A stretch of 35,263 nucleotides of DNA from an uncultured Porphyromonadaceae bacterium (GTDB lineage: Bacteria; Bacteroidota; Bacteroidia; Bacteroidales; Muribaculaceae), in assembly GCA_947176995.1 (NCBI GenBank), contig CAMWSY010000005.1, positions 1 through 35,263 on the forward strand, written 5' to 3'. The first letter of the stretch is position 1. Each line of letters starts with the position of its first letter. Positions 12,072 through 32,439 of the stretch are shown here, piece by piece. The translations under genes were made by a program, and so were the position numbers. The notes below the pieces were generated by a model. That model was not told where the DNA came from, searched no databases, and saw only the letters and a program-made list of their open reading frames with translations.

Positions 12072-12689
12072 ATGAAAAAGGCTCTTACCCTTCTCGCTGT
12101 GATATCAGCGATACTTTTTGCTCCCTGCGCGGCATCGGCTCAGTCGGCATCCGACATTCTCTCAAAACTCGGAACTGTGGCAAACAATGTGCTTGGCTCC
12201 GGAAAAGTCACAATTGCCGATCTTGAAGGCACATGGAGCTATGTGGAGCCTGCGGTGGAGTTCAAGAGCGACAATCTGCTGAAAAAGGCCGGTGGATCGG
12301 TTGCATCCACAACGATAGTCAATAAGCTGAAACCTTACTATCAGAAAGTGGGCATGGATAAAATGACCCTTTCGGTCGACTCTGCCGCTACATTCAAGAT
12401 GTCTGTTGGCAAGATTCCGCTCACAGGGCAGATCGTGGCATCGGAGACCGACGGCCAGTTTGTCTTTCAGTTCAAGGCTGCAAACAAGATCAACATGGGC
12501 AAGGTGAACGCCTATGTGTCGAAGACAGCCACAGGTCAGATAAAACTCACGTTTGACGTTTCCAAACTCATCTCGCTTGTCGAGACAGTGGCAAAAATAT
12601 CCGGTAATTCATCCATGAAGACTGTTTCATCGATGCTTACATCCTATGATGGTCTCACTGCAGGATTTGTTTTGAAAAAATCTAAATAA
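12072..12689 (+). CDS. DUF4923-type exported protein
   Basis: A 205-aa protein with a clear Sec signal peptide (MKKALTLLAVISAILFAPCAASAQS, cleavage after ASA). The mature part reads ILSKLGTVANNVLG, then TIADLEGTWSYVEPAVEFKSDN and KMTLSVDSAATFKMSVG. A LEGTW start followed by alternating beta-strands suggests a lipocalin-like barrel, and the pattern matches what I recall of DUF4923, a Bacteroidetes family of unknown function. It stands alone between argE and the trp promoter; no hairpin separates it from trp. TAACTTTT at 12049-12056 is a weak -7 candidate 15 nt before the ATG. Confidence 0.65.
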   Translation: MKKALTLLAVISAILFAPCAASAQSASDILSKLGTVANNVLGSGKVTIADLEGTWSYVEPAVEFKSDNLLKKAGGSVASTTIVNKLKPYYQKVGMDKMTLSVDSAATFKMSVGKIPLTGQIVASETDGQFVFQFKAANKINMGKVNAYVSKTATGQIKLTFDVSKLISLVETVAKISGNSSMKTVSSMLTSYDGLTAGFVLKKSK

Positions 12690-12692
12690 AAA

Positions 12693-12724
12693 TTTGCAGG
12701 GATTTATAAAAAAATATATTTTTG
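12693..12724 (+). promoter_or_regulatory. trp operon promoter
   Basis: TTTG (12693-12696), 20 nt, TATTTTTG (12717-12724) fits the Bacteroidetes promoter consensus. Transcription would start near 12730, about 20 nt before the leader-peptide ATG. The -33 box begins 4 nt after the DUF4923 stop codon. Confidence 0.75.
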
Positions 12725-12749
12725 CCTTTGTAAAAACAAAAACGTAATT

Positions 12750-12821
12750 ATGTCAACGACCACAAACTACAACAGCAAGTTTTATTGGTGGCGTCGGAAG
12801 GATCTCTTTCGATGGCGTTGA
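12750..12821 (+). CDS. trpL: trp leader peptide
   Basis: A 23-codon ORF starting MSTTTNYNSKFYWWRR and ending FRWR, stop TGA at 12819-12821. Three of 23 codons are TGG: two adjacent at 12786-12791 and one at 12813-12815. Trp is rare in proteins, so this density right after the trp promoter indicates a tryptophan-sensing leader. Ribosome position on it would decide between the antiterminator and terminator stems described in the next entry. No similarity to the E. coli TrpL sequence is seen beyond the WWR core. The length is typical of leader peptides. Confidence 0.85.
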   Translation: MSTTTNYNSKFYWWRRKDLFRWR

Positions 12822-12915
12822 CGTGCGATTTTACTTGATATAAGCACCATAAATTAAAATTAAAATAAATAAACCATCGATGGATCCGGTAAGACACTGA
12901 CCATCGATGGTTTTT
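12752..12915 (+). promoter_or_regulatory. trp attenuator (mutually exclusive RNA stems)
   Basis: Stem 1:2 pairs 12752-12758 plus 12760-12762 with 12813-12822 (GTCAACG, one bulge, CCA). Antiterminator 2:3 pairs 12809-12815 (TCGATGG) with 12874-12880 and 12800-12804 (GGATC) with 12883-12887. Terminator 3:4 pairs 12871-12883 with 12901-12913. Segment 2 overlaps the end of trpL: a ribosome stalled at the paired Trp codons (12786-12791) frees it to form 2:3 and transcription continues. A ribosome reaching the stop codon covers it and 3:4 forms. Without translation, 1:2 blocks the antiterminator. This probably corresponds to the Bacteroid-trp RNA family I recall from Rfam. Confidence 0.85.
12871..12915 (+). 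terminator. Attenuator terminator hairpin of the trp operon
   Basis: A perfect 13-bp stem (AAACCATCGATGG with CCATCGATGGTTT) encloses a 17-nt loop and is followed by a T run (12911-12915, then CATTT). It lies 53 nt upstream of trpB, inside the leader. Confidence 0.85.
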
Positions 12916-12958
12916 CATTTCGTGATTAATACTTTGTAATAAGTTTAGATCACTTCAT
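12915..12958 (+). repeat. 44-nt element shared by the trpB and aldose-epimerase leaders (copy A)
   Basis: This stretch is 33/44 identical without gaps to 20871-20914. Ends GTGAT (12922-12926) and ATCAC (12949-12953) can pair, with an inner ACTT/AAGT pairing (12931-12934 with 12941-12944). The trpB ATG follows 10 nt later. Function unknown. Confidence 0.5.
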
Positions 12959-12968
12959 TTATAATATA

Positions 12969-14162
12969 ATGAAATACAAAACAACACTTCCGGTCGACGA
13001 AAAAGGCTTCTACGGACGCTTTGGAGGAGCCTATATTCCTGAGATTCTCTATAGCAACGTCTCCAATCTTAAAAAGGCGTTTGCTGAGGCCATTGACGAC
13101 CCCGCTTTCATCAGCGAGGTTGAGACGTTGCTCGCCGACTATGTGGGGCGTCCATCGCCATTGTATAAGGCTGAATCCTTGTCGCGTCATTATGGTGCTA
13201 AGATCTATCTGAAGCGCGAAGACCTGAATCACACAGGCGCCCACAAGATAAACAACGCAATCGGGTCTGCGCTTCTGGCACGTCGCATGGGCAAGACACG
13301 TCTTATCGCCGAAACCGGGGCGGGGCAGCATGGAGTAGCCACGGCGACTGTTGCGGCGCTGCTGGGTATGCCGTGCGTGGTATATATGGGGGCGACCGAT
13401 GTGGAGCGTCAGCAACCCAACGTGCAGCGTATGCGTATGCTTGGTGCCGAGGTGCGCCCCGTTCATTCCGGCAACAAGACCCTGAAAGATGCCACCAATG
13501 AGGCTATCCGCGACTGGTGCTGCAATCCGGCCGACACATTTTATGTTATCGGAAGCACAGTCGGTCCGCATCCCTATCCCGAGATGGTCGCCTATTTCCA
13601 GTCGGTGATAAGCCGCGAGATCAAGGCGCAGCTTCTGGCCAAGGAAGGGCGTGAGAATCCTGATTATGTGATAGCCTGCATCGGAGGAGGAAGCAATGCT
13701 GCCGGAGCATTCTACCATTTTATTGATAACCCTGAGGTGAAATTAGTTGCGGTGGAGGCTGCCGGGCTTGGTACTGACACCGACATGACAGCCGCCTCGA
13801 TTCTTACCGGAACGCCGGGCATACTCCACGGCTCGCGCACACTACTGTTGCAGACCGACGACGGTCAGATCATCGAACCCTACTCTATATCCGCCGGTCT
13901 CGACTATCCCGGTGTAGGTCCGCTTCATGCGTTCCTTGCTGAGTCGGGACGCTCTAAGGTGCTTGCGGCGACCGATGACGAAGCGCTTGCGGCTGCCTAC
14001 TTCCTCACCCGCAACGAAGGAATAATTCCAGCCCTTGAGTCGGCACACGCGCTTGCAGGGCTTGAAAAGATAAAGTTCAACAAAGATGATATTGTCGTGG
14101 TTAACCTATCGGGACGCGGCGACAAAGATATGTCGACATATATCAGCCATTTGGAAAAATGA
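12969..14162 (+). CDS. trpB: Tryptophan synthase, beta subunit
   Basis: A 397-aa PLP enzyme joining indole and serine to make tryptophan, in an alpha2-beta2 complex with TrpA. Seen are [12 protein letters not shown], the PLP lysine K93 in [26 protein letters not shown], and the PLP-phosphate loop GGGSNAAG. Length is normal. It is the first structural gene after the attenuator, as in other Bacteroides-type trp operons where trpB leads and trpA is last, so the two partners lie at opposite ends of the operon. Its TGA overlaps the trpE ATG (ATGA at 14159-14162). Confidence 0.97.
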
Positions 14163-15550
14163 AAACAATAACCACACTTCTCCCGGCCGATCTGGAGACC
14201 CCGGTGGGGATATATCTTAAAGTCAGGGATATATACCCGCAGTCGGCACTGCTTGAGAGTTCTGACTACCACACCACGCAGAACTCCGTGTCGATTATCG
14301 GTGTGGATCCGGTAGCTCATTTCATGGTGCGCAATGATGAAATAGAGCAGACATGGCCCGATGGGCGGAGCACAAGCATGAAGGCCGACCACACCACCGT
14401 GGTTCGCGAGCTGCGCAATTACACAGCCTCATTCAGCGCTCTGGCTGTACCCGGTGTCACCAATGGGCTTCTCGGTTACACTGCTTATGATGCCGTGCGC
14501 TATTTTGAGCCGACAGTTCCTGTCAGCAAGCCGGCTCCCGAGTTCGCCCACATCCCCGACATACTCTATATTTTCTACCGCTTCATAATTCAGGTCAATC
14601 ACTTCCGCAACGAGATGACCATAGTGGAGAATATACCCGATGGCGGCGTGTCCGAAACTCCCCGGCTCATCAGCATCCTGAAAAACAACAATATGCCCCT
14701 CTATGGCTTTACGGCTGCCGATGACGTCACTTCCACACTTACCGATGAAGGCTTTATGTCTATCGTCGAGAAGTGTGTGGCTCACTGCAAGCGTGGCGAT
14801 GTGTTTCAGATTGTCCCTTCTCGCCGGTTTTCTCAGGGCTTCAAGGGCGATGATTTCAACGTCTATCGTGCTCTCCGTTCAATCAATCCCTCCCCTTATC
14901 TTTTCTACTTCGATTTCGCCTCTTTCAGGGTGTTCGGTTCATCTCCCGAAACACATCTGCGCGTTAAGGATGGCAAGGCCTATATTGATCCGATAGCCGG
15001 AACGTTCCGACGCACCGGCAATGATACCCGCGACCGCGAGCTCGCCGAAGCTCTCCTTCATGACGAGAAAGAAAATGCCGAACACATCATGCTTGTCGAC
15101 CTTGCACGCAACGACCTTAGCCGGTCAGGTGGAAAAGTCGATATCGAGTTCATGCGGCAGATTCAGTTCTATTCCCATGTGATCCACATGGTGTCGAGAG
15201 TACGTGCCGAGCTTCCTGCCGATGCTGACATCTTTGCGCTATTTGCCTCGACTTTCCCTGCCGGCACTCTTAGCGGCGCACCAAAAGTGAGAGCCATGCA
15301 GATCATCGACTCCCTTGAACCACATGCCCGCAAGATCTATGGCGGATGCCTCGGCTATCTCGGATTCGACGGCTCGATTAATCAGGCGATCACCATCCGC
15401 ACGTTTATCAGCACCGGTCAACGTCTTTACTCGCAGGCCGGAGCGGGAATCGTTGCGCACTCCTCACCCGCAACCGAATTGCAGGAGACAAACAATAAAC
15501 TCGGCGCTCTGCGCGGTGCCGTCGATATGGCCTCACGTTTCAACCCATGA
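14159..15550 (+). CDS. trpE: Anthranilate synthase component I
   Basis: A 463-aa chorismate-using enzyme, first committed step of tryptophan synthesis, acting with the TrpG glutaminase. Near the N-terminus ALLESSD matches the LLES motif at which tryptophan binds for feedback inhibition. The catalytic domain shows [66 protein letters not shown] and [12 protein letters not shown], all standard for TrpE. Overlaps trpB and trpG by 4 bp each (ATGA), so translational coupling is likely throughout. Confidence 0.96.
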
Positions 15551-16134
15551 TACCGACTGCTCAAATGAAACTACTTGTATTCGACAACTACGACTCGTTT
15601 ACCTACAACATAGTCCATGCTTTGCGTCAGCTCGGTGTCAATCCCGATGTGCGTCGCAACGATGCAATAACTCTCGACGAAATTGACGCTTACGATAAAA
15701 TCATAATCTCTCCGGGACCCGGTATACCCGAGGAGGCCGGTTTGCTCATGCCCATGCTTGAACGCTACGCCTCCGTCAAACCGATTTTGGGAGTGTGTCT
15801 CGGCCATCAGGCTATAGGTCAGCATTTCGGCGCACGTCTCCACAATCTCACCGACGTGTTTCATGGTGTGGCAACCCCCGTTGTTGTGACCGACACAACC
15901 GATTATCTCTTCGATGGACTTCCTACTGAGATAGAAGTCGGCCGTTATCACTCATGGGTGGTCGACCGTGAGAATTTCCCCTCCGATCAGCTTGAGATCA
16001 CGGCCGTCGATGAATCCGGCATGATCATGGCGATGCGCCACCGCTGGCTCGACATACATGGAGTGCAGTTCCACCCCGAGAGCGTCCTGACCCCGCAGGG
16101 CATGAAAATCATTGAAAACTGGCTTAGACACTGA
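15547..16134 (+). CDS. trpG: Anthranilate synthase component II, glutamine amidotransferase
   Basis: A 195-aa class I glutamine amidotransferase supplying ammonia to TrpE. The nucleophile C84 lies in GVCLGHQAIG; the His-Glu pair is in GVQFHPESVLTPQG; IISPGPGIPEEAG forms the oxyanion strand. Two starts are possible: ATG 15547, overlapping the trpE stop as ATGA, gives MIPTAQ before the core; ATG 15565 gives MKLLVFDNYDSFTYN, the more usual family start. The overlap pattern used elsewhere in this operon favours 15547, but the choice is uncertain. It does not carry the fused TrpD domain found in some TrpG proteins; trpD is separate. Confidence 0.95.
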   Translation: MIPTAQMKLLVFDNYDSFTYNIVHALRQLGVNPDVRRNDAITLDEIDAYDKIIISPGPGIPEEAGLLMPMLERYASVKPILGVCLGHQAIGQHFGARLHNLTDVFHGVATPVVVTDTTDYLFDGLPTEIEVGRYHSWVVDRENFPSDQLEITAVDESGMIMAMRHRWLDIHGVQFHPESVLTPQGMKIIENWLRH

Positions 16135-16145
16135 TACTGCGAATT

Positions 16146-17141
16146 ATGAAAAATCTTCTTTACCGCATGTTTGAGCATGGCAACCTGTCGCGCACCGAAG
16201 CGCGCGATGTTATGCTCAATATCGCCGACGGACGCTACAACGACTCTCAGCTTGCAGCCTTCATGACAGTCTTTCTCATGCGCAGCATCACTACCGATGA
16301 GCTTACCGGGTTCCGCGATGCGATACTTGAGCGTCGTCTGCCCGTTGATTTCGGCGATGTCGACGCTATCGACATTGTAGGCACTGGCGGCGACGGCAAA
16401 AATACCTTCAATATCTCCACCGCATCCTGTTTTGTCGTGGCCGGCACAGGGCGCAAGGTCGTGAAGCATGGTAACTATGGAGCCAGCTCCGTCTCGGGTG
16501 CATCCAATGTGCTGGAGCATCATGGAGTGAAGTTCTCCTCCGATATCGATAAACTGTCGCGTTCCCTCGACGAGAGCGGAGTCTGCTACCTTCATGCACC
16601 TTTTTTCAGTCCTGCGCTCAAGAGCGTGGCTTCGGTGAGGAAATCCCTTGCCGTGCGCACCTTCTTCAACATGCTCGGCCCGCTTGTCAATCCCGTTCTT
16701 CCGCGTCATCAGCTTCTCGGGGTATATAACCTCAAGCTCATGCGGCTTTACACCTACATAGCCCAGAACGAGGGCATAGCCTGCACGGTGGTGCATTCGC
16801 TCGATGGCTACGATGAAATCTCGCTCACATCGCCGTTCAAGGTGTCGGGCCCGACAGGGGAGCGCATCTACCGTCCCGAGGAGCTTGGTTGGGCAACTGC
16901 ATCGCAGCAGGAATTGTGGGGAGGCGACACCATAGCCGAGGCTGCAAAGATTTTTGATGACGTGCTCGACGGCAATGCAACTCCTGCGCAGGAAAATTGT
17001 GTGGTTGCCAACAGTGCCTTTGCGCTTGTCACCCTTGAGCCCCGTCTCTCCATTGCCGAGGCTCGTGCGCTTGCCGAGGAATCTATCCATTCGGGCGCGG
17101 CACGCAAAGTATTCAACAAATTCTGCGAGATAAACCGATGA
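16146..17141 (+). CDS. trpD: Anthranilate phosphoribosyltransferase
   Basis: A 331-aa enzyme transferring phosphoribose from PRPP to anthranilate. Motifs: GTGGDGKNTFNIST (PRPP-diphosphate loop), KHGNYGASSVSGASNVLEHHGV (anthranilate/PRPP region) and VRTFFNMLGPLVNPVLPRHQLLGVY. Starts 11 bp after trpG and overlaps trpC by 4 bp at 17138-17141. Confidence 0.96.
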   Translation: MKNLLYRMFEHGNLSRTEARDVMLNIADGRYNDSQLAAFMTVFLMRSITTDELTGFRDAILERRLPVDFGDVDAIDIVGTGGDGKNTFNISTASCFVVAGTGRKVVKHGNYGASSVSGASNVLEHHGVKFSSDIDKLSRSLDESGVCYLHAPFFSPALKSVASVRKSLAVRTFFNMLGPLVNPVLPRHQLLGVYNLKLMRLYTYIAQNEGIACTVVHSLDGYDEISLTSPFKVSGPTGERIYRPEELGWATASQQELWGGDTIAEAAKIFDDVLDGNATPAQENCVVANSAFALVTLEPRLSIAEARALAEESIHSGAARKVFNKFCEINR

Positions 17142-17926
17142 ACGATATCCTTCAGAAAATAGCCGCTAACAAGCGTCGGGAAGTCGCAGCCATTGATCCG
17201 GGCGACAGAGCGCTCCAGCATCTCATAGCTGTCTATGACAAACTGCCCGATACGCATTCCATGGCGGCCAGTCTGCGCTCTACTCCCGGCGGTATTATCG
17301 CCGAGTTCAAGCGCCGTTCTCCATCCAAGGGTGAGATCTTCCCTATGGCCGACGTTGCCGAGGTGATTCCGCAATACGTTCAGGGCGGTGCAGCCGCTTG
17401 CTCGGTGCTTACCGACACCCGTTACTTCGGAGGGGCTTCAACCGATCTGGCTGTCGCGCGCACATTGGCCGGCGGAGTGCCGCTTTTGCGCAAGGACTTT
17501 GTGGTCACCCCGGCGCAGATATATAACGCCCGTCTGCTTGGGGCGAGCGCGATTCTCCTTATTGCGGCTATTCTTACACCCGATGAGCTGGAGCAGTACA
17601 ATAACCTTGCCCATACACTCGGCATGGAGGCGCTTGTGGAGATACACGATATAAGCGAGCTCGATAAAATCAACTTCCACCCCGACATGCTTGGAGTCAA
17701 CAACCGCGATCTATCATCGTTCCACACCGATGTGAATCATTCGATGGAACTTGTCGCATCACTCCCCGCCGACACCCTGCTGGTAGCTGAGAGCGGAATC
17801 AAGACGCCTGCCGACCTGTGCCGACTGCGTGATGCCGGATTTACAGGATTTCTGATAGGGGAGGCCTTCATGTCGACTCCGGAACCCGGTGCAACACTAA
17901 AAAAATTTATCAATGCAACAGTCTGA
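17138..17926 (+). CDS. trpC: Indole-3-glycerol-phosphate synthase
   Basis: A 262-aa TIM barrel closing the indole ring of CdRP. Seen are GGIIAEFKRRSPSKGEI (catalytic lysine region), VPLLRKDFVVTPAQI, EALVEIHD, GVNNRDLSSF and VAESGIKTPADL, which carry the catalytic Lys, Glu and phosphate-binding residues. It is a single-domain enzyme, unlike the TrpC-TrpF fusion of E. coli; trpF is the next gene and overlaps it by 14 bp if the upstream trpF start is used. Confidence 0.96.
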   Translation: MNDILQKIAANKRREVAAIDPGDRALQHLIAVYDKLPDTHSMAASLRSTPGGIIAEFKRRSPSKGEIFPMADVAEVIPQYVQGGAAACSVLTDTRYFGGASTDLAVARTLAGGVPLLRKDFVVTPAQIYNARLLGASAILLIAAILTPDELEQYNNLAHTLGMEALVEIHDISELDKINFHPDMLGVNNRDLSSFHTDVNHSMELVASLPADTLLVAESGIKTPADLCRLRDAGFTGFLIGEAFMSTPEPGATLKKFINATV

Positions 17927-18629
17927 AAATCCGTCGGCACCCCGTCATGCTGACATGATGCTGAAAATATGCGGAATGTGCGATCCTGACAATATTGCTC
18001 AGGTTGCATGTCTCACTCCCATGCTCATGGGATTTATATTCTGGGAAGGCTCCCCGCGCAATGCCATAGGCATATCCCGTGACGTGTTCGACACCCTTCC
18101 CCCCTATGTGCGCTCCGTAGGTGTTTTTGTCAACGCTCCTCTTGAGGAGATTGTTGATACCACATCGCGCTACGGCATCCGCGTCGTTCAGCTCCACGGT
18201 GAGGAATCCCCGCAGTGCTGCAAGGAATTGCGCGACAGAGGTTATGCCGTCATAAAAGCAGTGAAAGTGCCCGCCGGAGCCAATAAGTTCTTCCTGTCAC
18301 TGCTTGAGCCTTATCGCGGGTGTGTCGATATGCTACTGTTCGACACTTCAGGAAGCAAGCCCGGAGGCAATGGCAGTAAATTTGACTGGGCGGTTCTCGA
18401 TGATTACACCCTTGGCATACCATATATGCTCAGCGGTGGCATAGGTCCCGATGATGTGGAGACGGTAAAAGCGGCCATGAAGCCCGGACTTGCCGGGATT
18501 GATCTCAACAGCCGCTTTGAGACCGCACCCGGCCACAAGGACGTCACCCGACTCGCCAACTTCATTCTTCAACTACGCAAACTCAACGAAAATGAACCGA
18601 TTGACCGCCCTTTTTGGGAAAAAGCATAA
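17913..18629 (+). CDS. trpF: Phosphoribosylanthranilate isomerase
   Basis: A TIM-barrel isomerase (238 aa from the ATG at 17913) converting PRA to CdRP. LKICGM holds the catalytic cysteine, and LLFDTSGSKPGGNG the catalytic aspartate with the phosphate loop; VQLHGEE, LSGGIGPDDV and GIDLNSRFE are also typical. The ATG at 17913 adds 14 residues before MMLKICGM and overlaps trpC by 14 bp; ATG 17955 would give the usual family start, 28 bp after the trpC stop. The C-terminus overlaps trpA by 38 bp. Confidence 0.93.
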   Translation: MQQSENPSAPRHADMMLKICGMCDPDNIAQVACLTPMLMGFIFWEGSPRNAIGISRDVFDTLPPYVRSVGVFVNAPLEEIVDTTSRYGIRVVQLHGEESPQCCKELRDRGYAVIKAVKVPAGANKFFLSLLEPYRGCVDMLLFDTSGSKPGGNGSKFDWAVLDDYTLGIPYMLSGGIGPDDVETVKAAMKPGLAGIDLNSRFETAPGHKDVTRLANFILQLRKLNENEPIDRPFWEKA

Positions 18630-19374
18630 CGACATTCTTTCTGTTTTCTTCACCGCCGGATATCCGCATATCGACAGCACTGTGCCCGTCATACAAGCTC
18701 TTGCCAGCAAGGGAGTCGATATGGTCGAAATCGGTATTCCGTTCTCCGACCCCATGGCCGACGGCCCTGTTATTCAGGCAAGCAGCTCAAAGGCTCTTGC
18801 TGGTGGCATGACACTGCGACGCCTTATCGGTCAGGTAAAGGAGGCGCGGGCTAAAGTCCCCGACATGCCCTTCATCCTCATGGGATATCTGAATCCCGTG
18901 ATGCACTACGGTATAGAAGACTTTTTCCGTGACGCGCATGAAGCGGGTGTCGATGGTGTTATTATCCCCGACCTTCCGTTCGACGACTATTTATCCGACT
19001 TCAAGGAACTCAGCCGGCATTACGATATACCCATGATCATGCTTATCACACCTGAGACCTCACCCGAGCGTATCAGGTTGATCGACAGCCATTGCGACGG
19101 ATTTATCTATATGGTGTCGGCGGCATCGACAACCGGTGCTAAAGACCGTTACAGTGAAGAGCAGCTTGATTACTTCCACCGCATCAACGCGATGAATCTC
19201 AAGCATCATCGCCTCATCGGTTTCGGTATATCCAACCCTGTCACATTCGGTCAGGCTCAGGCAAGTGCATCGGGCGCGATTATCGGCTCACACTTCATCA
19301 AGTGTCTTGACAAGGCCGATGGCGACCCCGACAAAGCCGTGGATATGCTTTTGCAATCGATAGGCCGCGCTTAA
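18592..19374 (+). CDS. trpA: Tryptophan synthase, alpha subunit
   Basis: A 260-aa TIM barrel releasing indole from indole-3-glycerol phosphate and channelling it to TrpB. Motifs: SVFFTAGYP, VDMVEIGIPFSDPMADGP (catalytic Glu and Asp), ILMGYLNPV, VDGVIIPDLPFDD, FIYMVSAASTTGA and GFGISNPVTF. The frame is open to 18490, but MNRLTALFGKKHND at 18592 matches the family start. The start lies 38 bp inside trpF in another frame. It is the last gene of the operon, followed at once by a palindrome that may end transcription. Confidence 0.96.
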   Translation: MNRLTALFGKKHNDILSVFFTAGYPHIDSTVPVIQALASKGVDMVEIGIPFSDPMADGPVIQASSSKALAGGMTLRRLIGQVKEARAKVPDMPFILMGYLNPVMHYGIEDFFRDAHEAGVDGVIIPDLPFDDYLSDFKELSRHYDIPMIMLITPETSPERIRLIDSHCDGFIYMVSAASTTGAKDRYSEEQLDYFHRINAMNLKHHRLIGFGISNPVTFGQAQASASGAIIGSHFIKCLDKADGDPDKAVDMLLQSIGRA

Positions 19375-20877: not shown

Positions 20878-20914
20878 GTGATTAGCATTGTGTAACAGGT
20901 TTGAATCACATCAA
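20871..20914 (+). repeat. 44-nt element shared by the trpB and aldose-epimerase leaders (copy B)
   Basis: 75% identical over 44 ungapped positions to 12915-12958. End pairing is GTGATT (20878-20883) with AATCAC (20904-20909). It ends 18 nt before the epimerase ATG. Confidence 0.5.
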
Positions 20915-20932
20915 CAAATCATCTTATATCAA

Positions 20933-22081
20933 ATGAAAAAAATCTATTCTGCCATTGCCGCTGCATCTGTTCTGGCTTTGGCTGCCTGCAACTCAGCCGA
21001 CAAGCAGGCGACAACCCTCTCAGGTCTTGACCCTGAAAACTTCGTGGCCGACGTCAATGGTAAGAAGACTGCGCTCTACACACTCAAGAACGACAAGGGC
21101 ATGGAGGCGTGCATCACCAACTTTGGCGGTCGCATCGTCTCTGTCATGGTGCCCGACAAGGACGGAAATATGACCGACGTTGTGCTTGGATTCGACAATA
21201 TCAACGACTATCTTCCCGAGAACAACCGCACTGACTTCGGCGCTGCAATCGGCCGTTACGCCAACCGCATCAATCAGGGACGCATCGTTATCGAGGGCGA
21301 CACCATTCAGCTTCCCCAGAACAACTACGGCCACTGCCTCCACGGTGGTCCCGACGGATGGCAGTATAGCGTCTATGACGTGCTCGAGGCTACCGACAAC
21401 ACCCTGAAGCTCGCCCTCACTTCACCCGACGGCGACGCAAACTTCCCCGGTAAGATCGATGTTGTGCTCACCTACACACTTACCCCCGACAATGCGCTCG
21501 ATATAAAGTATGAGGCAACATCCGATGCTCCCTCGATCATCAACATGACCAACCACTCCTACTTCAACCTCAACGGCAACCCCAACGAGGCTATCACCAA
21601 CAACACCCTTACTCTTGCTGCTGCCAACTACACTCCGGTTGACTCGACATTCATGACCACAGGTGAGATTCTTCCCGTTGCAGGCACTCCCATGGATTTC
21701 ACTTCGGGTCGCGTTATCGGTGACGACATCGACAACTTCGACTTCGTGCAGATCAAGAACGGTCTTGGCTACGACCACAACTGGGTGCTCGACAACCCCG
21801 GCAACGACAACATTCCCGCTGCCACACTTTATTCACCCACTACCGGCATCGTTCTTGAGGTGCTCACCGACGAGCCCGGCATTCAGGTCTACACCGGCAA
21901 CTTCCTTGACTCGACCGTGACAGGTAAAAACGGCATTGTCTACAATCCCCGTAACGCTATCTGCCTTGAGACTCAGAAGTACCCCGACACCCCCAACAAA
22001 CCCGAGTGGCCTTCGGCTGCTATCTCGCCTGAGAAGCCCTACTCGAGCCACACCGTGTTCAGCTTCTCGGTTCAGGAATAA
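20933..22081 (+). CDS. Aldose 1-epimerase, periplasmic lipoprotein
   Basis: A 382-aa galactose mutarotase-family protein that interconverts alpha and beta anomers of sugars. A lipoprotein signal (MKKIYSAIAAASVLALAAC, C19) places it on the periplasmic side. The epimerase body shows ITNFGGRIVSVMVPDKDG, AAIGRYANRI, HCLHGGPDGWQ, TNHSYFNL (catalytic His), AGTPMDF and CLETQKYPDTPN (catalytic Glu). The frame extends upstream to a TTG at 20888, but the lipobox sets the start at ATG 20933. It is a paralogue of the cytoplasmic GalM at 31393-32439 and probably handles sugars freed by surface or periplasmic glycosidases. It is monocistronic, with its own strong terminator. Confidence 0.9.
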   Translation: MKKIYSAIAAASVLALAACNSADKQATTLSGLDPENFVADVNGKKTALYTLKNDKGMEACITNFGGRIVSVMVPDKDGNMTDVVLGFDNINDYLPENNRTDFGAAIGRYANRINQGRIVIEGDTIQLPQNNYGHCLHGGPDGWQYSVYDVLEATDNTLKLALTSPDGDANFPGKIDVVLTYTLTPDNALDIKYEATSDAPSIINMTNHSYFNLNGNPNEAITNNTLTLAAANYTPVDSTFMTTGEILPVAGTPMDFTSGRVIGDDIDNFDFVQIKNGLGYDHNWVLDNPGNDNIPAATLYSPTTGIVLEVLTDEPGIQVYTGNFLDSTVTGKNGIVYNPRNAICLETQKYPDTPNKPEWPSAAISPEKPYSSHTVFSFSVQE

Positions 22082-31392: not shown

Positions 31393-32439
31393 TTAAGCTT
31401 TGAAGCTGAATACGATTGTTTCATCAAACACCTCTCCCTCGCGGAGCACCGTGTTGGGGAAGTTCTGATGATTGGGGCTGTCGGGGAAATGCTGGCACTC
31501 GAGTGCTACACCCTCGCGGTTCTGGTAGGGGCGTCCTTCGGGGTTGAGAGGAGTTTCTCCGCCAAACCAGTTGGCTGTGTATAGCTGCACTGCCGGCTGG
31601 GTGGTCGAGATCGTGAGCTCGCGGCCGGTCTTCGGGTCACGCAGCCATGCTATCGGTGCGAGTCGGCCCGGTACCCAGTTGTCGGCTACAAAGCAGTGAT
31701 CATATCCGCGCCCTATGTGCAGAGCCTCAAAATCCTCGTTGATGTCGCGGCCGATTGGCTTGGCTGTTGTGAAGTCCATCGGTGTGCCCTCTACGGTAGC
31801 GATTTCGCCGGTGGGAATTTGTCCCTCATCGGTGGGAAGCCAGCGCGAGCAAGCCAGCTTCAGCTCATGGTCGAGTATGTCGCCGCTGTTCTCACCTGCC
31901 AGATTGAAGTAAGTGTGGTTTGTGAGGTTGAGGATCGTGGGAGCGTCCGTCACGCCGGTGTAGTGGATTGTGAGCTCGTTGTCGTCATTCCATGTGTACG
32001 CCACTCTCACGTCGAGTGCGCCGGGATAACCCTCTTCGCCGTCAGGACTGATGCGTGTGAATGCCACCGTGTCGTCATCCTCTACCGTCGTGTCCCATAT
32101 TCTGTTCTGGAACCCCGTGGGGCCGCCGTGCAGATGGTGCGGGCCGTTAGTGGCCTTGAGCTTGTACTCCTTGCCGTCGATCGAGAATGTGGCGTTGGCT
32201 ATGCGGTTGGCATAGCGGCCCGGTGTCTTGCCTGCGCACGGGCCGTCGGCCATGAAGTCAGCGGGATCGGCATAGGTTGTGATCACGTTCTGTATGTTGC
32301 CGGTAGCGTCAGGGACATTGATTTCCGTCACTCCTGCTCCGAGGGAGCTGAGCACTACGCTCGCTCCCTTGGAGTTGGTGATGGTGGCAAGTGTGATTTC
32401 CCCAAATTTTGAGGCTACCTTTTCAATTTTTACTGCCAT
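31393..32439 (-). CDS. galM: Galactose mutarotase (aldose 1-epimerase), cytoplasmic
   Basis: A 348-aa mutarotase without a signal peptide, supplying alpha-D-galactose to galactokinase. Motifs: TPGRYANRIANA, HHLHGGPTGFQNR, LNLTNHTYFNLAG (catalytic His), EGTPMDFTTAKPIG, GYDHCFV and ALECQHFPDSPN (catalytic Glu). It lies 39 bp after galK and 14 bp before the nucleotidyltransferase. It differs from the periplasmic lipoprotein paralogue at 20933-22081 in location and context. Confidence 0.92.
   Translation of the reverse strand: MAVKIEKVASKFGEITLATITNSKGASVVLSSLGAGVTEINVPDATGNIQNVITTYADPADFMADGPCAGKTPGRYANRIANATFSIDGKEYKLKATNGPHHLHGGPTGFQNRIWDTTVEDDDTVAFTRISPDGEEGYPGALDVRVAYTWNDDNELTIHYTGVTDAPTILNLTNHTYFNLAGENSGDILDHELKLACSRWLPTDEGQIPTGEIATVEGTPMDFTTAKPIGRDINEDFEALHIGRGYDHCFVADNWVPGRLAPIAWLRDPKTGRELTISTTQPAVQLYTANWFGGETPLNPEGRPYQNREGVALECQHFPDSPNHQNFPNTVLREGEVFDETIVFSFKA

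Follow-up and report, generated by a model that had tools for sequence, protein, structure and literature searches.

A predicted ribosome-mediated transcription attenuator in front of the trpBEGDCFA operon of a Muribaculaceae bacterium

We propose that the leader of the trpBEGDCFA operon, found in the window (the whole stretch of 35,263 nucleotides of DNA that was analysed), is a classical ribosome-mediated transcription attenuator. Considering its sequence parts, conservation, covariation and computed structures together, we put the probability of this reading at roughly nine in ten. The leader RNA is thus very likely a switch which stops transcription unless a ribosome stalls for lack of tryptophan. 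Its parts all lie at positions 12693-12968, immediately 5′ of trpB; by computation and by comparison with relatives they comprise a leader with tandem Trp codons, a terminator before the first gene, an antiterminator which takes up the 5′ arm of that terminator, and a 1:2 protector hairpin (Table 1).

Operon, promoter and leader peptide

NCBIfam matches give a tryptophan operon in the order trpB-E-G-D-C-F-A, in a genome whose completeness is estimated at 71%. Upstream, a DUF4923 gene (Pfam) ends at 12689, and 279 nt lie between it and the trpB start at 12969. Two aldose 1-epimerase genes are also present in the 35-kb window, at 20888-22078 (+) and 31393-32436 (-).

An earlier, sequence-only reading of this DNA had recognised a consensus promoter here. 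Both boxes, TTTG and TAttTTTG, are indeed present, and the predicted promoter is of the Bacteroidota sigma-A type, TAnnTTTG class, from which transcription would be expected to start near 12730. TAnnTTTG is the -7 box in Flavobacterium (PMC9723704). Of 84 relatives, 76 have such a box no more than 90 nt upstream of the start of the leader, whereas it occurs there in 5.7% of shuffles.

The same reading had reported a 23-codon ORF with TGG TGG and a third TGG, all of which are found where it placed them, and had held that loss of the Trp codons from orthologous leaders would speak against attenuation. The trpB upstream regions of the family were compared: 92 of the 397 Muribaculaceae-family genomes searched bear trpB, and these gave 90 non-identical regions, 89 of them evaluable (one ends at a contig edge); 80 further trpB loci were taken besides this family set. 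An ATG-started ORF with in-frame TGGTGG is present in 84 of the 89 evaluable regions, and tandem Trp codons also stand upstream of trpB in many other Bacteroidales. The pattern ATG-N9-39-TGGTGG has hundreds of matches genome-wide and is uninformative at that scale. The small share of genomes with a trpB match (58 of 222 among those of high quality) suggests that most Muribaculaceae-family genomes may lack the ability to synthesise tryptophan.

Some relatives depart from the common form. In five loci (L019, L021, L030, L115 and L126) the leader carries the motif (N/S)WRWWR and a different segment 2/terminator pair, GCGGCA with UUGCCG. In another member of the window's genus (L007, from genome G026, contig 45) leader and promoter are absent and the orthologue of the upstream gene apparently abuts trpB with a TAATG overlap; either the attenuator has been deleted naturally or the assembly is at fault.

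Table 1. Features of the trp leader and operon (positions in the window)
Feature	Position	Strand	Details and basis
Promoter (predicted)	12693-12724	+	TTTG 12693-12696, 20-nt spacer, TAttTTTG 12717-12724; sequence
Leader peptide ORF (predicted)	12750-12821	+	23 codons, MSTTTNYNSKFYWWRRKDLFRWR and stop; sequence; Trp-Trp leader in 84/89 relatives
Outer helix	12750-12824	+	12750-12758 : 12816-12824; folding; own-versus-foreign test
Tandem Trp codons TGG TGG (W13-W14)	12786-12791	+	predicted stall site; conservation; ribosome-position folding
1:2 protector hairpin	12792-12814	+	12792-12800 : 12806-12814; folding; own-versus-foreign test; pair counts
Segment 2, antiterminator 5′ strand	12800-12815	+	GGAUC 12800-12804, UCGAUGG 12809-12815; folding, comparison
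Third TGG (W22)	12813-12815	+	lies within segment 2; mostly reflects the RNA segment CGAUGG
Intrinsic terminator hairpin 3:4	12871-12913	+	followed by U-rich tract 12911-12921; compensatory changes in 6/10 pairs
Segment 3, antiterminator 3′ strand	12874-12887	+	CCAUCGA 12874-12880, GAUCC 12883-12887; overlaps terminator 5′ arm
trpB, first operon gene	12969-14162	+	TIGR00263 above cutoff
trpE, trpG, trpD, trpC, trpF, trpA	14159-19374	+	NCBIfam matches; Pfam TrpA

RNA stems and ribosome positions

The leader RNA as a whole folds with z = -4.0, none of 200 shuffles being equally stable, and the terminator hairpin by itself has about -22 kcal/mol (z = -4.5 against shuffles). The U tract of the terminator is short and interrupted, TTTTTCATTTC. 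A stock terminator scan did not detect the hairpin, presumably because the scan permits loops of at most 8. Both terminator arms (12874-12910) are the palindrome CCATCGATGG, each able to pair with itself or with segment 2, which is otherwise the case only in locus L003.

Folding and comparison agree with the earlier proposal of pairing between segment 2 and the terminator 5′ arm: the antiterminator core, UCGAUGG:CCAUCGA (7 bp), is lengthened by GGAUC:GAUCC, and segments 2 and 3 are separated by an A/T-rich spacer of 58 nt. For the window alone, the terminator 5′ arm and the 40 nt that follow the Trp codons are complementary at p = 0.005 by shuffling; the segment 2-segment 3 signal is far stronger among the relatives. 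Stem 1:2 had been drawn as starting at the leader ATG. A helix does lie at the ATG, but instead of a single stem we find two stacked helices, and the outer one, with no ribosome present, encloses the start codon and the Trp codons.

We then considered where a ribosome would have to stand, folding only the RNA ahead of it and only up to a segment 4 not yet made; the results hold for both footprint lengths tried. With no ribosome the 1:2 hairpin has a probability of 0.96, the outer helix 0.89 and the antiterminator 0.01, in keeping with the earlier suggestion that an untranslated leader would also terminate. With the A site at W13 or W14 the antiterminator core reaches at least 0.99, the first base of GGAUC (12800) lying just past a ribosome stalled with W13 in its A site; from codon 18 onwards, W22 and the stop codon included, the antiterminator is at 0. 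The computed energies are -10.6 (1:2), -13.7 (antiterminator) and -22.2 (terminator) kcal/mol. Since the antiterminator is less stable than the terminator, the switch has to be a kinetic one, decided before segment 4 appears; the switch of the E. coli trp attenuator is likewise kinetic.

The events would run as follows. RNA polymerase would start near 12730 and a ribosome would translate the leader. Where Trp-tRNA is sufficient, the ribosome would reach the stop codon and mask segment 2, so that 3:4 forms and transcription ends near 12915. Where Trp-tRNA is short, the ribosome would stall at codons 13-14 and mask segment 1; the freed segment 2 could then pair with the terminator 5′ arm before the 3′ arm is made, and the polymerase would enter trpB. 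Were the leader not translated at all, 1:2 and the outer helix would sequester segment 2, which would lead to termination too. We infer that ribosome and polymerase are coupled and that the cell responds to tryptophan in this way.

In most relatives segment 2 starts 20-23 nt downstream of the first Trp codon, a spacing which matches the requirement of a ribosome footprint. This near constancy argues against tryptophan being sensed without translation (by a T-box, a TRAP-like protein or a riboswitch), with the ORF incidental. Hairpins such as these could in principle serve any antitermination device, but in the window neither the T-box nor any other Rfam family reaches threshold, and we regard sensing of that kind as extremely unlikely. 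The T-box and RF00513 (Trp_leader) models give no match in the window at gathering or at E up to 10. Weak Rfam scores were taken as chance: those of microRNA and snoRNA models, and that of Ocean-V, which reaches 31 bits, below its cutoff of 75, on the minus strand within the upstream gene.

Conservation and covariation among relatives

The sequence-only reading had named a lack of compensatory changes in the three alternative stems, 1:2, 2:3 and 3:4, as evidence that would refute ribosome-stalling attenuation. All three stems covary, so that covariation joins folding in strongly backing the mechanism. Pairs were counted in an alignment of 55 leaders. In 2:3, 95.0% of cells are paired (90.3 when shuffled, 7-57 when slid) with 25 double changes (8.7 shuffled), a count which is favoured by the choice of these leaders for a fully pairing core. 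The terminator, 3:4, has 93.8% paired (83.3 shuffled) and 72 double changes (21.7 shuffled). Stem 1:2 is the least supported, with 84.0% paired (81.2 shuffled), 8 double changes (1.9 shuffled) and a covariation score matched by 14 of 500 shuffles. In the same leaders compensatory changes occur in 6 of 10 pairs of the terminator, 4 of 8 of the antiterminator and 3 of 6 of 1:2, and the fit is lost in all three stems when the partner is slid by 1 to 3 columns. Matched changes can be read off single loci: CGACGG with CCGTCG in L121, and CGGCGG with CCGCCG in L027, L029, L036 and L124.

A second test, in which each species' segment 2 is set against its own and against other species' terminators, is independent of the alignment and without the bias of core selection. 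In 83 family leaders segment 2 fits its own 5′ arm with a median of -15.3 kcal/mol, versus -13.2 for foreign arms (p = 2.4e-13), whereas its fit to its own loop + 3′ arm is no better than to foreign ones (p = 0.20). For 1:2 the test gives p = 1.5e-8 (60 relatives) and for the outer helix p = 5.8e-6; like those from shuffling, these p-values ignore relatedness and are therefore optimistic. The null result for loop + 3′ arm, obtained under equal relatedness, is the best guard against such inflation.

These comparative data bear directly on whether the arrangement could be chance, namely the terminator of the upstream gene together with a random small ORF. The DUF4923 gene does end only 4 nt before the promoter and no other terminator for it is in view. 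However, the leader is conserved before trpB, there is covariation in its stems, and the terminator of the same species suits segment 2 better than foreign ones do, by which the chance explanation is refuted; we give it practically no weight beside attenuation.

A covariance model of the family leaders (R1) finds the window leader at E = 5e-16, the window itself being part of the model, and nothing else convincing in its own genome. A second match there, on contig 78 (E = 0.006), is a terminator without tandem Trp codons or a trp gene and was rejected. In a search of 198 genomes of the order, most of the better-scoring R1 matches beyond the family were Trp-Trp leaders of trpB, trpE or trpG. 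The R1 matches L184, L188, L190 and L206 were set aside as terminators downstream of unrelated genes.

From the comparison of about 84 related sequences we conclude that a trp attenuator of the classical type has been kept across Muribaculaceae, a gut family.

The third Trp codon

The sequence-only reading had further suggested that the third Trp codon gives graded control at different degrees of starvation. This we could not sustain, and a second sensing step at that codon now appears unlikely. Only 48 of the 84 leaders have a further Trp codon after TGG TGG; among family leaders with full-length trpB, the trpB tree implies at least 7 changes in the state of the in-frame third Trp; and in L005, L158 and L167 a stop codon stands in place of TGG. 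Moreover, in the ribosome walk a ribosome with W22 in its A site covers segment 2, which means termination, not antitermination. The codon is nevertheless well kept where it is read: TGG is retained in 40 of the 41 leaders with segment 2 in frame, but in 12 of the 19 which have segment 2 in another frame or beyond the stop codon (Fisher p = 8e-4, in a test which ignores relatedness, and the in-frame state may simply be commoner and less diverged). TGG is also retained through G-U pairing with an altered terminator.

Segment 2 encodes Arg-Trp in the window; among relatives all three frames occur, and in some segment 2 follows the stop codon. It is read as Ile-Asp-Gly or Ile-Gly-Gly in L011, L116, L147, L161, L027 and L036, as Ser-Val-Ala in L127 and L134, and it stands after the stop codon in L006, L010, L018, L029 and L135. 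Across relatives its pairing is retained, the encoded amino acid is not. This frame variation, the repeated state changes and the masking of segment 2 suggest that the third Trp is mostly a by-product of the RNA sequence; its retention in frame raises a small doubt as to whether it is purely passive. Since segment 2 occurs naturally in different frames, selection acting on RNA pairing can here be told apart from that acting on the peptide.

Bacteroid-trp and the wiring of Bacteroidales leaders

The Bacteroid-trp RNA (RF01692) was described by Weinberg et al. 2010 (PMC2864571), and the sequence-only reading had proposed both kinship with it and a search with its covariance model. That search found nothing in the window, even when E was allowed to rise to 10, and nothing in the window's own genome (gathering score 49 bits); of 7 family leaders tested, none matches. 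RF01692 does match two Phocaeicola loci (L080, L093) and locus L083, that is 3 of the 11 non-family Bacteroidales Trp-Trp leaders tested, which suggests that the model (Rfam 15) misses most such elements.

These three matching loci, with the shared site before trpB and a similar Trp-rich leader, could be taken to mean that the window holds an RF01692 element, whose segment 2 would, judging by the leaders which match the model, capture the terminator loop + 3′ arm; the palindromic arms would in principle allow segment 2 to pair with either arm. We consider this very unlikely, given that RF01692 fails to match, that in the window segment 2 pairs with the 5′ arm at -19.7 versus -6.2 for loop + 3′ arm, and that the 5′ arm is preferred in 75 of 83 family leaders. 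The proposed kinship is weakened: the position before trpB and the Trp-rich leader are shared, the RF01692 match and the probable antiterminator partner are not, and a 5′-arm antiterminator is preferred for the window.

Other Bacteroidales differ in this respect. Loop + 3′ arm is preferred in 33 of 35 of their leaders, with an own-versus-foreign p = 2.7e-5, while the 5′ arm carries no such signal in these 35 leaders (p = 0.53). Loop + 3′ arm pairing is predicted for leaders of the range L043-L111, for example L093 (near 1302-1451) and L098. On the trpB tree a branch (SH-aLRT support 99%) separates the two wiring groups, and there are 4 wiring changes in all, some of them near ties. Two Muribaculaceae of one genus (L166 and L173) have the loop + 3′ arm wiring; L096, a long-branch row without a scored wiring, falls among the family rows.

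We lean towards the view that orthologous Bacteroidales trp leaders may exist in two wirings, with the 5′ arm used in Muribaculaceae and loop + 3′ arm in the others, RF01692 members included, the wiring having been exchanged while stall codons and target gene stayed unchanged. A loop + 3′ arm antiterminator, if true, would be unusual and would need to trap the loop ahead of hairpin closure. Such a clade-wise difference in antiterminator geometry would allow us to ask how attenuators get rewired in evolution, and the family leader alignment would extend Rfam.

Comparison with known systems

The E. coli trpL leader has tandem Trp codons, alternative 1:2, 2:3 and 3:4 stems and a 5′-arm antiterminator, and it terminates when untranslated; in each of these the window leader is like it. 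Unlike trpL (RF00513), the window leader lacks an RF00513 match and has a Bacteroidota promoter, a trpB-first operon and a 58-nt spacer between segments 2 and 3. In the literature we searched, mostly without subscription papers, no trp attenuator of Muribaculaceae or Bacteroides had been shown by experiment. Lopatovskaya et al. 2010 (cited in PMC4833913) may describe attenuators of Bacteroidetes.

Attenuators of Flavobacterium amino-acid operons share with the window leader the phylum, a proposed leader-peptide mechanism (for Flavobacterium, inferred from structure and a database match) and TAnnTTTG promoters (PMC9723704, PMC6414381); Flavobacterium belongs to another class of Bacteroidota than the window's bacterium.

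Bacteroid-trp is also a Trp-rich leader before Bacteroidota trp genes, in the orthologous position before trpB, with a long hairpin closing over its Trp codons. RF01692-type leaders differ: most have three Trp codons in a row, and their segment 2 (AAGUCGUAAG, across the stop codon) fits the terminator loop + 3′ arm, where that of the window fits the 5′ arm. The window leader very likely represents a known mechanism of textbook type which is unseen by the existing Rfam model, and it and Bacteroid-trp are probably a homologous element before the same gene.
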